Shown here one piece after another: positions 9,281 to 15,220 of a stretch of 20,393 nt of DNA. Source of the DNA: Streptomyces sp. NRRL WC-3618 (GTDB lineage Bacteria > Actinomycetota > Actinomycetes > Streptomycetales > Streptomycetaceae). Below the pieces are notes generated by a model, which was not told the origin of the DNA, did not search any database, and saw only the letters and a program-made list of their open reading frames with translations. How positions within the stretch are numbered: position 1 is the stretch's first letter; each line of letters opens with the position of its first letter. A program made the position numbers and the translations under genes. The stretch covers positions 1 through 20,393 of the forward strand of contig NZ_LGDW01000050.1 in assembly GCF_001280005.1 (NCBI RefSeq), given 5' to 3'.

Positions 9281-10720
9281 CTATCGAGGCTGCCACGCCC
9301 GTACGAGGTCTTCCGGCCCCCAGCGAGCATGGAGGGGCAGATCATCGGCCACCCCGCAGCGGGAAACGGCCACCAGAGGAGTGGCCGGGGTGGTGCCGGG
9401 GACGGCGAGCATGTCCCGTACCAAGGCGTCGTACTCATGGAGCCCGAAGGGCTGGTTCTCCAGCCACTTGACCGACCCGACGAAGTGCACCTGCCGAGCT
9501 ACCGGCTCACGGTCCGCACCAATGAGGTCGATCTCGGGGTTGTTCTGACGGTTCCACCAACCGCCGACGGCCTCGGTGTCTGGCCACTCGTCGTTCGGCA
9601 TCAGACGCAGCAATGCCTCGCGAATCAGCGGCTCGACCGCCCGTCCGCGCCAAGTGGCCCAGGACCGCTCGATGCGTTCCAGCGCCAGGTCGCCGCGACC
9701 ACGCTCGATGAGGGGGATCGCACGTGCCAGGAAGGCCAGCCAGAACCGCAGATACGGGTCGGCAATGCGGTAACGCTTGTTCTTGCTGTCCGGCTTGACG
9801 GACAAAGGGAGATCGGCGGCCAGAACTCGCTTGGTCTGCAACGTGCCCAACAGCGGGGAGAGCGTGCCCGACGGCAGTGCGCCGGTGCCACCCACCCGGG
9901 CTGCGATGGTGCTGAAAGTGCGCTCACCACTGCCGACCGCTTCCAGTACGGCCCGCGAGTGCGAAGCCTCGGGGAACTCGCCCAGCAGGGACAACTCGCC
10001 CGCCATCAGCAGGGGCGAGAGCGGGTTGGCGACCGACGCCCGCAAGAACGCCATGCGCCCCATTCCGGGCGTCCACGACTGCACGATCTCGGGGAATCCG
10101 CCGGTGATCAACTGAGCATCGACTGCTGCGGCGGCGTCGAGTTCAGTCATGGCCTGCACATCGGCCAGATTCAGAGGACGGACGGTCATTTTCGCCGCAC
10201 GGCCGAAAAACGGGCGCCCGTACGACTGCAGTGCCTCCATCACCGAGGTATCACTGCCGACCAACAGCAGAAGCACGGGCTTGGAAGACAGGTGCCGGTC
10301 CCAGACAGTCTGGAGTGCGCCCTCGAATTCCTGATCCTGCTCGACCAGCCAGGGCACCTCGTCAATCACCGCGATGCTGGGAGAGTCGTCGGGTACCGCA
10401 AGCGCGAGCGAACGCAGGGCCTGGTTCCAGTCCTGCGGCTGAAGGCCGGCGAACAGTTCCCCCTTTGGCAACAGCGACTGCGCGAGGGTCGCGGCGAAAT
10501 CGGCGCGTTCCGCCACAGGATTGCGCCCCCGGGTGGCCTGAAACACCACGTACGGCGCTCCCGAACGATCACAGAACTCCTGGACCAGCCGAGACTTCCC
10601 CACTCGGCGACGGCCCGTCATGATCACGGCCCGCCCACGGGTGGCGCCCCCACCATCGGCCACTGTCCGGTACTGCCCGGCCAACAGTTCAAGATCCCCG
10701 ACCCGGCCCCGGAACTCCAC
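9281..10720 (-). CDS. DUF234-type P-loop ATPase
   Basis: This 479-residue protein has an N-terminal ATPase domain. Walker A is GRRRVGKS (residues 36-43), Walker B is SIAVIDEVPWL (115-125), and a sensor-like LLVGSDTSVM lies near 152-161. The C-terminal part contains WWNRQNNPEIDLIG and VGSVKWLENQPFG. This matches the DUF234 restriction-endonuclease-like domain found after archaeal-type AAA/STAND ATPases. In many nuclease-fold relatives the residue two before the final lysine is Glu; here it is Ser (GSVK), so nuclease activity is uncertain. The cellular role of this family is not established. The start is a GTG at 10720 with GGAG about 6 nt upstream. The gene borders the AT-richer island but has intermediate composition. 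A 9-bp direct repeat lies 17-41 nt upstream of the start. Confidence 0.85.
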   Translation of the reverse strand: MEFRGRVGDLELLAGQYRTVADGGGATRGRAVIMTGRRRVGKSRLVQEFCDRSGAPYVVFQATRGRNPVAERADFAATLAQSLLPKGELFAGLQPQDWNQALRSLALAVPDDSPSIAVIDEVPWLVEQDQEFEGALQTVWDRHLSSKPVLLLLVGSDTSVMEALQSYGRPFFGRAAKMTVRPLNLADVQAMTELDAAAAVDAQLITGGFPEIVQSWTPGMGRMAFLRASVANPLSPLLMAGELSLLGEFPEASHSRAVLEAVGSGERTFSTIAARVGGTGALPSGTLSPLLGTLQTKRVLAADLPLSVKPDSKNKRYRIADPYLRFWLAFLARAIPLIERGRGDLALERIERSWATWRGRAVEPLIREALLRLMPNDEWPDTEAVGGWWNRQNNPEIDLIGADREPVARQVHFVGSVKWLENQPFGLHEYDALVRDMLAVPGTTPATPLVAVSRCGVADDLPLHARWGPEDLVRAWQPR

Positions 10721-10982: not shown

Positions 10983-11147
10983 CCGTCATCGCGAAGGATG
11001 GAATCAGCACAGTAATAGTCGGAAGATAATATTAGCCAATTCCTGACGGCTGTTTCTCCAAATACCGAAACGGCACTGTTCGCAAGGTGGCGGGATCCTC
11101 CTGCGTCATGCTTCACTACCATACGAAGCAGCGTCATGGAGACTCCG

Positions 11148-11723
11148 ATGATCGCATCAATGGTAACTGCCTGCGCCAGCATCCTTATTGCCGTCATGGC
11201 CTACTGGCTGAACCATCGAGCAGAGACTCGAAGGTCTCAAAGGGAAGCGCGAATCGACCGGGTGAGCAGTCAGTTAAAAGACCTCTACGGGCCCCTTCTC
11301 GTTCTCACAGAGACAAACGAGAGAGCGTGGGCCGAATATTACAGACACTACATTCGACCCATTGGTGCAGGCCGGGCCGATATTCAGCTGCCGGAGTCAG
11401 AAGAAGCACGTTGGCGCACGTGGGTAGAAACAGTGTTCGCCCCGACGGCCCAGAAAATACGGGATATTATCACCGCCCGGGGAGACCTGATCATCGGGAG
11501 AGAAATGCCGCCCGTGGTCCTGGAATTCTGCGCACACGCAGCGACCTACGACGTCCTTCTGGCGAACTGGGACGGAGCCGGCCCGAGTAAATCCACCCTG
11601 ATTCGCCATCCGGGAAACCAGTTTCTGTCCTACGTCCGAGAGTCATACGGATCACTCAAGGAGGAACAGACACTACTCCTCAAGGTGGCGCGTGAGGACG
11701 ATCGGGTCGGATTCCATCAATAA
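11148..11723 (+). CDS. Membrane-anchored protein upstream of TIR gene
   Basis: This 191-residue protein has one N-terminal transmembrane segment (about residues 3-21, ASMVTACASILIAVMAYWL). A basic linker (NHRAETRRSQREARIDR) and a soluble, mostly helical domain follow. The positive-inside rule puts the domain in the cytoplasm. Motif-like parts are QLKDLYGPLLVLTETNERAW, RWRTWVETVFAPTAQKIRD and EFCAHAATYDVLLANW. I recall similar uncharacterised Streptomyces membrane proteins but no assigned function. The ATG at 11148 is preferred over the one at 11136 because GGAG at 11138-11141 is 6 nt before it. Codon use is less GC-biased than in the flanks, consistent with acquired DNA. It lies 28 bp ahead of the TIR frame on the same strand, so it is a likely membrane sensor or anchor for the TIR protein. 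Confidence 0.75.
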   Translation: MIASMVTACASILIAVMAYWLNHRAETRRSQREARIDRVSSQLKDLYGPLLVLTETNERAWAEYYRHYIRPIGAGRADIQLPESEEARWRTWVETVFAPTAQKIRDIITARGDLIIGREMPPVVLEFCAHAATYDVLLANWDGAGPSKSTLIRHPGNQFLSYVRESYGSLKEEQTLLLKVAREDDRVGFHQ

Positions 11724-11751
11724 GCATAACGATTGAAATTGGGAACCCGCC

Positions 11752-12624
11752 ATAAAATTATTCCTGAGCTGGTCCGGAGCGCGCTCCAAGAAGGCCGCTG
11801 AGACCCTACGGTCCTGGTTACCGGACGTTCTCCAATACATCAACCCCTGGCTTTCCAGCCTGGACATTTCTGCCGGAAGGAGAGGGGTTCGAGAGATTAC
11901 CGACGAGCTTTCCGAGACAAATTTCGGCATCATCTGCGTAACCCCGGAGAACCAAGCTTCACCTTGGATAAATTTCGAAGCCGGGGCCCTTTCCAAACAA
12001 GTCGAGGGCAGCTACGTCGTCCCGTTCCTGATTGGCATGAAAACCACCGACCTCATCAGCCCTCTCAGTCAGTTCCAGGCCGTCATCGGGGAAAACAAAG
12101 ACGACGTACAGAAACTTCTTGTCGACATCAATGAGGTCTCGGGCAACCTGACAATCCCGCGCGAAAGGCTGGAACGCGCCTTCCTGAGAAGTTGGCCGGA
12201 GTTCGATAACGACATCAGGAGCATCGGCGCAATTTCATCGAGAGATTACATTTCAAAGAAGGTGCAACGATCCGAAGCTGACATGACGGAGGAGATCCTC
12301 CTTATTTCTCGACAGCTCGATCACCGTATCGCGGAGATCGAAAGGTACACACTACGGGCGGATGGGACACCGCGGCGACCTTCTCGGGAGATTCGCCGGA
12401 TCAGCGAAGAGAAGTTCATTGTATCCTCATTCACAAAGATCGGCTGGGAGGCTGTGCGATCCTCCTGGGAGGGGGAAAGCGTAGTCATTGCAGCTCGGAG
12501 TTCCAGTGGGACCTCGCAGTCGATTTCGCGCGATTTTGTCGTGCGGCTTGCCAAGTCCCTGAGTCGGGAGGTAGTTGTGCTGGGGGAAGCTGGGGAAGTG
12601 ATTGTTCGCAGCAACTTCCTCTGA
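11752..12624 (+). CDS. TIR-domain protein with apparent ATA start
   Basis: Read from ATA at 11752 this frame gives 290 residues. Residues 2-83 form a bacterial TIR domain: KLFLSWSGARSKKAAETL is the first strand and helix, SSLDISAGRRG the BB-loop region, ELSETNFGIICVTPEN the central strand, and SPWINFEAGALSK carries E76, the expected catalytic glutamate in a W-x-x-x-E setting. Bacterial TIR domains commonly cleave NAD+ or make cyclic ADP-ribose signals. The C-terminal 200 residues match no family I know and end in beta-like segments. The frame has no ATG, GTG or TTG between the TGA at 11734 and residue 96; the first ATG is at 12037, past the whole TIR domain. ATA sits where homologues usually have ATG, with GGGA 7 nt upstream. 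The gene either uses ATA or is disabled by a point change. Confidence 0.75.
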   Translation: MKLFLSWSGARSKKAAETLRSWLPDVLQYINPWLSSLDISAGRRGVREITDELSETNFGIICVTPENQASPWINFEAGALSKQVEGSYVVPFLIGMKTTDLISPLSQFQAVIGENKDDVQKLLVDINEVSGNLTIPRERLERAFLRSWPEFDNDIRSIGAISSRDYISKKVQRSEADMTEEILLISRQLDHRIAEIERYTLRADGTPRRPSREIRRISEEKFIVSSFTKIGWEAVRSSWEGESVVIAARSSSGTSQSISRDFVVRLAKSLSREVVVLGEAGEVIVRSNFL

Positions 12625-12626
12625 GA

Positions 12627-13505
12627 CTACGCCTCCCTAAATTTATCGAATTTAACCTCGACCGGCATCGGCATCTTCTCTCTCTTCTTCAAGCGCCGAA
12701 GAACCAATTCGCCTTCCGGCTCAACCCAGGCATTCCATGCCTTGATGTAGATTGCTACCTGGTCTCGCATGCCCATCCTGCGCCTGGAACCCCGCTTCTG
12801 AGTGCCCTTCGGCACCTCTCGCAGAGCGAGCCGCGCATCGCCAGGATCCAAATTTGCGCCCGACTTGAGTCCCGAGATCCACTCGTCGATGTCTGCGGCA
12901 GGCGCCACTTCAGTGGTCAAAAAGAACCCCGCCGCAACCGCCGTCTGCGTCGCGAACAGGTGCTTGGAAAGATCACGACCGATGGTCACCGCCTCCTCGT
13001 ATCTGTCTTTATCCCCGTTGTATGCGGCCAGGATCCGGTCGTTCGATACCTGAGACCGGGAACCGCTCCAAGGAGCGTTCGGAATCGCCTTGAAGAGAAT
13101 CACATGCCGGATGGTGGAGGAAAGCAGTGGCAGGTACTTCGCGCCGGTCGACAGCAGCGTATCCGCTGCACTCCGACGCTTTCCGGTGTCGAGAACCGGG
13201 AAAACTTCCCTTGACATCCCTTCGAAAACGAGCATCTCTACAGGAGTGTTGGCCTCGATAATCGCGTGGAGGCGATGTTGGCCATCGAGAAGTGCGCCGA
13301 CCTCGTCGAAGGCAATTCCCTGATGAGTCAGCTTCCATTCGCCACGACGGATGGCCTCGGCCAGGGACCTCACCTGCCCCATATCCAGGCGTCTGTTAAC
13401 CGAAGCCTGGGACAGGTGAGTCTTGGCCATTTCGGGGGTCACCTTGACGATTCGTGAGACCAGTTTCCCTTCCGGCTCTTCTGGCTTCGTGATAGCAATA
13501 GTCAT
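12627..13505 (-). CDS. DGQHR / ParB-like domain protein
   Basis: This 292-residue protein contains NRRLDMGQVRSLAEAI, RRGEWKLTHQGIAFDE and LLDGQHRLHAI (DGQHR at residues 74-78), then VLDTGKRRSAADTL. This is the ParB/sulfiredoxin-like fold of phage and island proteins with the DGQHR signature, also seen in DndB-type proteins. Such domains bind DNA or nucleotides. The exact role here is unknown, and a DNA-binding regulator or a defence component are both possible. It has no membrane segment. The ATG at 13505 is preceded by AGGA with 7-nt spacing; the overlapping TAGGAT could alternatively be a leaderless -10. It is convergent with the TIR gene with 2 bp between the stops. Codons are less GC-rich than in the flanks. 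Confidence 0.85.
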   Translation of the reverse strand: MTIAITKPEEPEGKLVSRIVKVTPEMAKTHLSQASVNRRLDMGQVRSLAEAIRRGEWKLTHQGIAFDEVGALLDGQHRLHAIIEANTPVEMLVFEGMSREVFPVLDTGKRRSAADTLLSTGAKYLPLLSSTIRHVILFKAIPNAPWSGSRSQVSNDRILAAYNGDKDRYEEAVTIGRDLSKHLFATQTAVAAGFFLTTEVAPAADIDEWISGLKSGANLDPGDARLALREVPKGTQKRGSRRRMGMRDQVAIYIKAWNAWVEPEGELVLRRLKKREKMPMPVEVKFDKFREA

Positions 13506-13511
13506 CCTTTT

Positions 13512-13561
13512 ATCCTAAGGCCACCGAAACCCGAACTCTTATCTGTGATCGAAAATGATCA
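13512..13561 (-). promoter_or_regulatory. Promoter region of the DGQHR gene with TGATC sites
   Basis: TAGGAT (minus strand, 13517-13512) ends 6 nt before the ATG and could be a -10 box. Upstream, TGATCGAAAATGATCA at 13546-13561 has inverted TGATC/GATCA arms. Another GATCATTT lies near 13609-13616. These could be operator sites, perhaps for the adjacent ParB-like protein itself. From 13562 to 13800 I see no intact gene. Confidence 0.3.
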
Positions 13562-13810
13562 ATTTTAGCCAGAGAGGTATTATCCAAACACCTTCGATGC
13601 TCTAATGGATCATTTCAGAATAAGTTGGACTGCAGGTTTTGTGCATGCACACCTTGGGCGGCAGTCCTGTCGACGACGCGTACGAAAGCATCTGACCAGG
13701 GAGGGTATGGCGTTGCCCGCTGGGCCGATACGCCAATGACGGGGCTTCATCTCTGCGAGCCGTTTACGGCTGTTCGTGGCCCGGTGGCGAAGAGCAGGGC
13801 GACGGCAGGC

Positions 13811-14035
13811 GACCCGTGGTCCACACGCACTTCATGGACTGCTCCTGCCAGCCCACCTGCAAGAAGGCCGGCCGAGTGAAGGGCACCGGACCCCACGGCC
13901 CTCCGGCACTACTACGCCAGCCTACTGATCAAGCACGGCGAGTCCGTGAAGCCGGTCTCCAAGCGCCTCGGCCACACCAAGGCGGCCATGACGCTGAACA
14001 TCCACAGGTCGACGAAGCGGCGTGGCCGCTCCCCG
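13811..14035 (+). pseudogene. Degenerate tyrosine recombinase (integrase) C-terminus
   Basis: The remnant reads across two frames. DPWSTRTSW (13811-13837, frame 2) is followed by CKKAGRVKGTGPH (frame 1, to 13896), then ALRHYYASLLIKHGESVK and SKRLGHTKAAMTLN (frame 2). This is the order found at the end of actinobacterial phage-type integrases (R/H-x-x-R/H/Y family). One shift lies between 13838 and 13858, and one extra base sits at 13897. HxxR (GPH-AL-R) and the LGH histidine survive. The codon at 14003-14005, where the nucleophile tyrosine is expected, is CAC (His), and the following HL motif is lost. Frame 2 also has a TGA at 13877. The N-terminal two thirds are missing. It is non-functional and marks past integration at the island's right end. 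Confidence 0.75.
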
Positions 14036-14078
14036 CGTGCCGGACTCATCAGCACACTGCCGACTCTGTGCAGACGGC

Positions 14079-14120
14079 AAAGGCCGCCTAACCCGCTCCA
14101 CTGCAGGTCAGACGGCCTTT
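14079..14120 (-). terminator. Hairpin terminator of ychF
   Basis: On the minus strand AAAGGCCGTCTGACC pairs with GGTTAGGCGGCCTTT over 15 bp (two G-U pairs) around a 12-nt loop. On the plus strand the two G-U pairs become mismatches, so it serves ychF. It lies 12 nt past the ychF stop and ends in TTT. Confidence 0.7.
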
Positions 14121-14131
14121 CTCTGGACGTA

Positions 14132-15220
<1,089 letters not shown>

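Follow-up and report, generated by a model that had tools for sequence, protein, structure and literature searches.

Introduction

Bacterial genes with experimentally characterised non-canonical start codons are very few, according to the excerpts of Feeney et al. (2017; PMC5472188) used here. The same excerpts describe two Streptomyces genes, infC starting with ATC and sigR starting with GTC, both of which were misannotated, and report that raised IF3 lowers SigR. Non-canonical starts of S. aureus, AUA among them, are given in the excerpts of PMC13009471 as yielding approximately 10% of AUG output in poor medium, with up to 30% for the ccpN start in rich medium. Among TIR systems, that of the P2-like phage AC1 protects E. 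coli C against phage (Rousset et al. 2022, PMC9122126, in excerpt). Among the open-licence titles and abstract openings listed, none reports a non-canonical start in a TIR or phage-defence gene, which is weak evidence of absence, and nothing on AUC or AUA starts was found in the portion of PMC11497404 that was consulted.

The locus compared here with these systems was found in Streptomyces sp. NRRL WC-3618. The window, the whole stretch of DNA analysed (20,393 nt), is the entire contig C50 (NZ_LGDW01000050.1) of the 9.34-Mb draft genome (499 contigs), and contains a TIR gene with ATA at the place of the start codon. Translation is proposed to begin at an Ile codon at this site (AUA at 11752; AUC in most close relatives) as a lasting feature of the clade that keeps the TIR protein scarce. 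Read from sequence, this proposal as a whole is given a probability of about 0.7.

TIR reading frame and product

The TIR frame is closed on its upstream side by an in-frame TGA (11734..11736, + strand), is open from 11737, and ends with a TGA stop at 12624. With ATA (11752..11754) as codon 1, the gene (11752..12624, + strand) encodes 290 aa. As the preliminary description had stated, a frame scan found no ATG, GTG or TTG before residue 96; the first canonical in-frame start is ATG at 12037..12039 (codon 96), and the ORF from there has 195 aa. The GGGA noted in the same description, a weak Shine-Dalgarno-like element, is present at 11741..11744, 7 nt ahead of ATA, which is a usual spacing.

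The 290-aa frame matched Pfam TIR_2 (PF13676) over residues 4-112 at 34.4 bits (curated cut-off 28), and the 195-aa ORF from 12037 was without any Pfam match. The codon, the frame and the motif were as the preliminary description had given them. E76 (11977-11979), at the usual place of the conserved and presumably catalytic TIR glutamate, was invariant in 40 of 40 aligned homologues, and the other invariant TIR residues of the alignment were also kept in the window copy. The AlphaFold model, compared with PDB structures, had a TIR fold, with the predicted first strand at residues 2-6; a sequence search of solved structures with the TIR protein gave nothing at E < 0.1 (best E 0.14). The PADLOC profile TIR-TM was matched at E 6.3e-62, residues 1-193 aligning with profile positions 1-195 of 293. 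Positions 196-293 were left unmatched by the window protein, and no hydrophobic helix was seen by hydropathy in its C-terminal extension. On these analyses the gene probably encodes an immune-type TIR effector, for which NADase activity and a part in phage defence would be expected.

Start position in relatives

The protein search returned 693 matches; 120 of these were listed and the first 82 were classified by start position. Sixty-six of the 82 (P0001-P0063, P0067, P0074 and P0080; at least 62% identity) formed the close group, in which all records with a named source came from Streptomyces or Kitasatospora. The residue aligned with codon 1 was the annotated start, as Met, in 31 of the 66; in the two of these that were compared with DNA the codon was ATC in one and GTG in the other. 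A later start was annotated in 22, and 13 began further upstream, position 1 being Ile in 11 of them and Val in two. All 16 of the other classified records (approximately 41-57% identity) started at position 1; gene callers therefore disagree on the close clade and not on its neighbours. In the 13 extended records a canonical codon shortly before position 1 may serve as the start, so that Ile at that position was dropped as proof of an ATC/ATA start. The start-codon counts rest on DNA-checked loci only, six of the 66 close records having been matched to a DNA locus.

Eight close loci with DNA were available, including the window. Position 1 was ATC in five of the seven relatives (L128, 87% identity to the window; L113, 84%; L002, S. 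lushanensis, 79%; L003, S. tagetis, 79%; L115, 74%), ATG in one (L129, 75%) and GTG in one (L116, 67%); the weak codon is thus not universal, two of the eight members having ATG or GTG. The preliminary description had placed the Met of the homologues at this site. The site does coincide with the start position of the relatives, but their DNA mostly encodes Ile there. A G-to-A change silencing an ATG, the second of two branches that had been offered, did not survive the comparison; as ATC is found in each of the four nearest relatives with DNA, parsimony favours a change from ATC to ATA. The other branch, in which ATA is used and yields little protein, fares better. It is supported by the position of the codon, the Shine-Dalgarno spacing, selection on residues 2-95 across the clade and, most of all, by the ATC of the five relatives. 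The apparent sharing of the odd codon, as ATC in other species, goes beyond what had been described from the window.

Sequencing or assembly error at 11752-11754 was also considered, the window being known from a single draft assembly in 499 contigs. An error would have to strike exactly the ATA codon, however, and ATC at the same site in five other genomes indicates that an Ile codon is real in the clade, so that this explanation is very improbable.

Any TIR match was found in 15 of 392, 15 of 394, 19 of 391, 6 of 199, 11 of 295, 2 of 70 and 6 of 245 genomes (overlapping sets), and no further close loci were present in the sets of 392, 199, 295, 70 and 245 genomes. The plasmid collection held 11 relatives and the phage collection four, all below 60% identity, and viral contigs held 17 TIR relatives at 26-46% identity.

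Among 82 distinct loci whose alignment begins at residue 1, 78 had a canonical start in the stretch from the upstream in-frame stop up to codon 1, a test that left out 42 distant loci not so aligned and the loci added later. The four exceptions were the window itself and L128, L113 and L002, which belong to the seven close relatives; none of the 74 distant loci was among them. The one-sided exact probability for four of eight close against none of 74 distant loci was approximately 4e-5 (by hand; with related rows, a guide only). Sixty-six of the 74 distant loci had ATG, GTG or TTG at position 1, and the other eight had it 3-72 nt upstream. The upstream in-frame stop was at -18 in the window, -33 in L128, -24 in L113 and -15 in L002, and the first canonical start after that stop was codon 96, 23, 96 and 23, respectively. 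The two remaining ATC relatives carry a canonical in-frame codon upstream, which counts against the Ile-codon start: GTG at -60 in L003, and ATG at -12 in L115. The ATG of L115 overlaps its Shine-Dalgarno sequence, like the misannotated GTG of sigR. The triplet before the TIR start (codon -1) was GCN in all eight close loci, with a varying third base (GCT, GCA, GCC, GCG), and persisted even where an in-frame stop was closely upstream.

Eleven of the 22 later annotated starts gave the N-terminus MSWSG at codon 5. One of these is P0001, the window's own database record, which starts at CTG (11764..11766, + strand) and has 286 aa; P0067, P0074 and P0080 were annotated from the position matching ATG 12037. 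The hazard of an annotation that hides the TIR domain, foreseen in the preliminary description, is thus real. The same records (P0001 and ten others at codon 5, three relatives at the 12037 position) speak for a start elsewhere, whether at CTG codon 5, at some different near-cognate codon or, giving 195 aa without TIR domain, at ATG 12037 alone. Near-cognate candidates were codon -4 (ACG in L128; AAG in L113 and L002), codon 2 (AAG in L128 and L113) and codon -2 (also ATC in L113). CTG codon 5, however, is separated from GGGA by 19 nt, and a start there would truncate the first TIR strand; the candidates at codons -4 and -2 overlap or touch the Shine-Dalgarno sequence and are not common to the members, and a start at codon 96 only does not fit the upstream dN/dS of 0.02-0.10 given below. 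CTG codon 5 and ATG 12037 were rejected on spacing, structure and selection, and a start at any site other than codon 1 is considered quite improbable.

Cassette and genomic setting

A co-oriented partner gene (11136..11723, + strand; 195 aa) ends in TAA 28 nt before the TIR start. Its product showed a single hydropathy peak at residues 2-20, and AlphaFold helices at residues 3-72, 87-118, 126-143, 149-155 and 162-194 (mean pLDDT 84.0), an N-terminal hydrophobic helix followed by long helices. From these predictions the partner is probably membrane-anchored. The third cassette gene is a convergent neighbour (12627..13505, - strand; 292 aa) of the ParB/sulfiredoxin or DndB/DGQHR-like kind. Its relatives are named ParB/Sulfiredoxin domain protein by one source, and Pfam DndB was matched weakly in eight of 31 homologues (best E 0.014). 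A DGQHR match had E 0.022. Neither of the two partner proteins of the window itself matched Pfam. The ParB/DndB-like gene could be a regulator or sensor.

A TIR match was present in 75 scanned loci and was flanked by both the membrane partner and the convergent gene in eight, namely the seven close loci and L147 (TIR 49% identity, ATG start, both partners adjoining). The three-gene cassette was thus seen in nine loci counting the window. Two distant loci, L091 and L119, had the membrane partner only, and 65 of the 75 had neither partner, some with short flanks. In L091 and L119, whose TIR genes are more distant, the membrane-partner homologue (49-53% identity) is found on the downstream side of the TIR gene, and the pairing may therefore predate the close clade, with another gene order. 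By matching of equal-size contigs in clustered lists, at least 31 of the 66 close TIR records were on the same contig as both partner families, and at least 49 of the 66 on the same contig as at least one. Because clustering at 90% conceals members, contigs with both partners and no listed TIR record were given no weight. ATG was present at the aligned start of the convergent gene in seven of nine loci and at aligned residue 5 of the membrane gene in all nine. Within the cassette genes compared in this way, the weak start is thus confined to the TIR gene.

GC content was approximately 0.55-0.58 at 11001-14000 and mostly approximately 0.70 elsewhere on the contig, and the low-GC region is likely an acquired island. 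No tRNA genes were found in the window. An ATPase_2/DUF234 protein encoded at 9281-10720 (- strand) matched the PADLOC phage-defence candidate PDC-S27 (E 1.3e-21). It was not seen in any of the 75 scanned loci with a TIR match and was set aside as a separate adjoining element, not a cassette member. A short ORF at 13946-14230 (+ strand), without Pfam match, contains a stretch (GHTKAAMTLNIH) that by eye resembles a tyrosine-recombinase tail.

Initiation context

In the window, pairing with the 16S tail reached at best -5.2 kcal/mol, the weakest value among the eight close members. The ATC members gave -10.9 (L128), -12.2 (L113), -9.7 (L002), -7.4 (L003) and -6.4 kcal/mol (L115), and the canonical members -7.5 (ATG, L129) and -10.7 kcal/mol (GTG, L116); L117 and L082, which are more distant and start with ATG, had -5.1 and -10.7 kcal/mol. 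The ATC members have a normal Shine-Dalgarno sequence that is not specially strong, and that of the window is weak. Since relatives with canonical starts also have a strong Shine-Dalgarno sequence, there is no special compensation for the weak codon.

The gap from the partner stop to the TIR start was 28 nt in the window, 17 in L128, 21 in L113, 21 in L002 and 19 in L003. It was 53 nt in L115, and 42, 74 and 39 nt in the canonical loci L129, L116 and L082. Short gaps fit assistance from ribosomes that have just terminated on the partner, which at nine loci is suggestive only. Read-through of the partner stop codon, or frameshifting, could in principle fuse the TIR protein to the membrane protein, and in L113, L002, L129 and L082 the partner TGA and the TIR gene share a frame. 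Yet the frame relation of partner and TIR gene varies (0, 1 or 2) between members, on which ground fusion was rejected, and the window has TAA at the partner end as well as an in-frame TGA before ATA. As read from the sequence, TGA 11734-11736 argues against any longer in-frame product or simple fusion with the partner, and almost no weight is given to this explanation. Also rejected was a small ORF that overlaps the TIR start, seen by eye in L128 and L113 and not in L002 or L003.

Selection and phylogeny

The dN/dS ratio (NG86) over residues 2-95 was 0.02-0.10 in 23 of 28 pairs, the other five being saturated and not computable, and over residues 96 to the end was 0.09-0.27 in 24 of 28 pairs; many dS values exceeded 1, and the ratios are rough. 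Residues 2-95 thus appear to be under strong purifying selection clade-wide, with which an untranslated TIR part would not fit.

Substitutions found only in the window were 17 non-synonymous and 11 synonymous, against 14 and 24 on the sister branch of L128, and the unique changes within residues 2-95 were 3 and 4 in the window and 2 and 8 in L128. Constraint may be relaxed in the window copy. These counts and the weakest Shine-Dalgarno sequence of the eight close members (-5.2 kcal/mol) speak for decay of the window copy, by which the clade would use AUC and here ATC would have become ATA, the Shine-Dalgarno sequence weakened, and the gene fallen silent or nearly so. Against decay, the 290 codons are without stop or frameshift, both neighbouring genes are open over the full length of their homologues, E76 and the other invariant TIR residues are retained, and the 3 and 4 changes in residues 2-95 are a small count. 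AUA is also reported as a start codon in S. aureus infC and ccpN (PMC13009471, in excerpt). A silent or nearly silent gene is judged unlikely. The weak Shine-Dalgarno sequence and the branch counts may also mean, within translation from an Ile codon, that the window copy is further attenuated or decaying.

Mapped on an 85-row tree, the non-canonical label, carried by 15 rows, needed 10 changes, five of them forced by well-supported branches. Bootstraps of this tree had not settled and rows with an annotated Met can hide ATC, as in P0003, whose annotated Met sits on the ATC of L128. Read from these labels, the non-canonical start would have been either repeatedly gained and lost or under-called.

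Discussion

In the proposed mechanism the initiator tRNA would read the Ile codon (AUA/AUC) as formyl-Met. The weak codon would hold the TIR protein at a lower level than the membrane partner encoded in the same orientation, probably because IF3 discriminates against the Ile codon, and ribosomes finishing the partner gene 17-28 nt upstream would assist the weak start. On triggering of the cassette, presumably by phage, the TIR domain would consume or convert NAD+. A bolder extension is that immunity is gated at the start codon itself. IF3 would then repress TIR in healthy cells, and a shortage of IF3 relative to free 30S subunits (e.g. when host translation is disturbed by phage) would derepress TIR together with infC, tied to translation of the partner. 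This extension is rather unlikely; if true, the initiation machinery itself would arm an immune effector.

If translation from the Ile codon is correct, TIR genes of this clade with AUC or AUA starts would form a new class in which the start codon determines how scarce a self-harming effector is kept, and the level of IF3 would be predicted to influence immunity. The annotations also point to a blind spot. Callers often shorten close TIR proteins or start them past the TIR domain, as in 22 of the 66 close records, and defence surveys based on predicted proteins can therefore miss such genes.

Compared with SpbK and the other phage-defence TIR NADases, the window TIR protein gave no sequence match to a solved structure at E < 0.1 and matched PADLOC ThsB weakly (E 0.02 and 0.041). 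With the AC1 system the TIR half is 41% identical over residues 1-187, and the AC1 TIR gene likewise adjoins membrane-protein genes (Rousset et al. 2022, PMC9122126, in excerpt). AC1 differs from the window cassette in the C-terminus and the start codon (ATG) of its TIR gene and in its membrane genes, two small ORFs with which the partner shared no significant similarity (best blastp E 3.0). PADLOC TIR-TM and AC1 are surmised to belong together.

The window gene resembles S. aureus infC, ccpN, citZ and cvfC1 (AUA/AUU) in its proposed AUA start, in the conservation of non-canonical starts and in the lowered output that is proposed for it; infC, ccpN and cvfC1 have extended Shine-Dalgarno motifs, whereas that of the window is weak, and the four do not include a TIR gene (excerpts of PMC13009471). 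In the window genome, infC (L148, G000:C14) has an apparent ATC start behind GAGGAGG, as assigned by eye and from the excerpts of PMC5472188, with canonical codons also in frame upstream of the assigned ATC. Like Streptomyces infC and sigR, the TIR gene appears to have a near-cognate or non-canonical start that is often misannotated, theirs being conserved in the genus, and sigR has a strong Shine-Dalgarno sequence ahead of its start and shares an operon with a partner to which its ratio matters (excerpts of PMC5472188). Unlike infC and sigR, the window gene is a putative TIR effector gene on a low-GC island, its ATC/ATA start is not universal in the family, and its control by IF3 is proposed by analogy.
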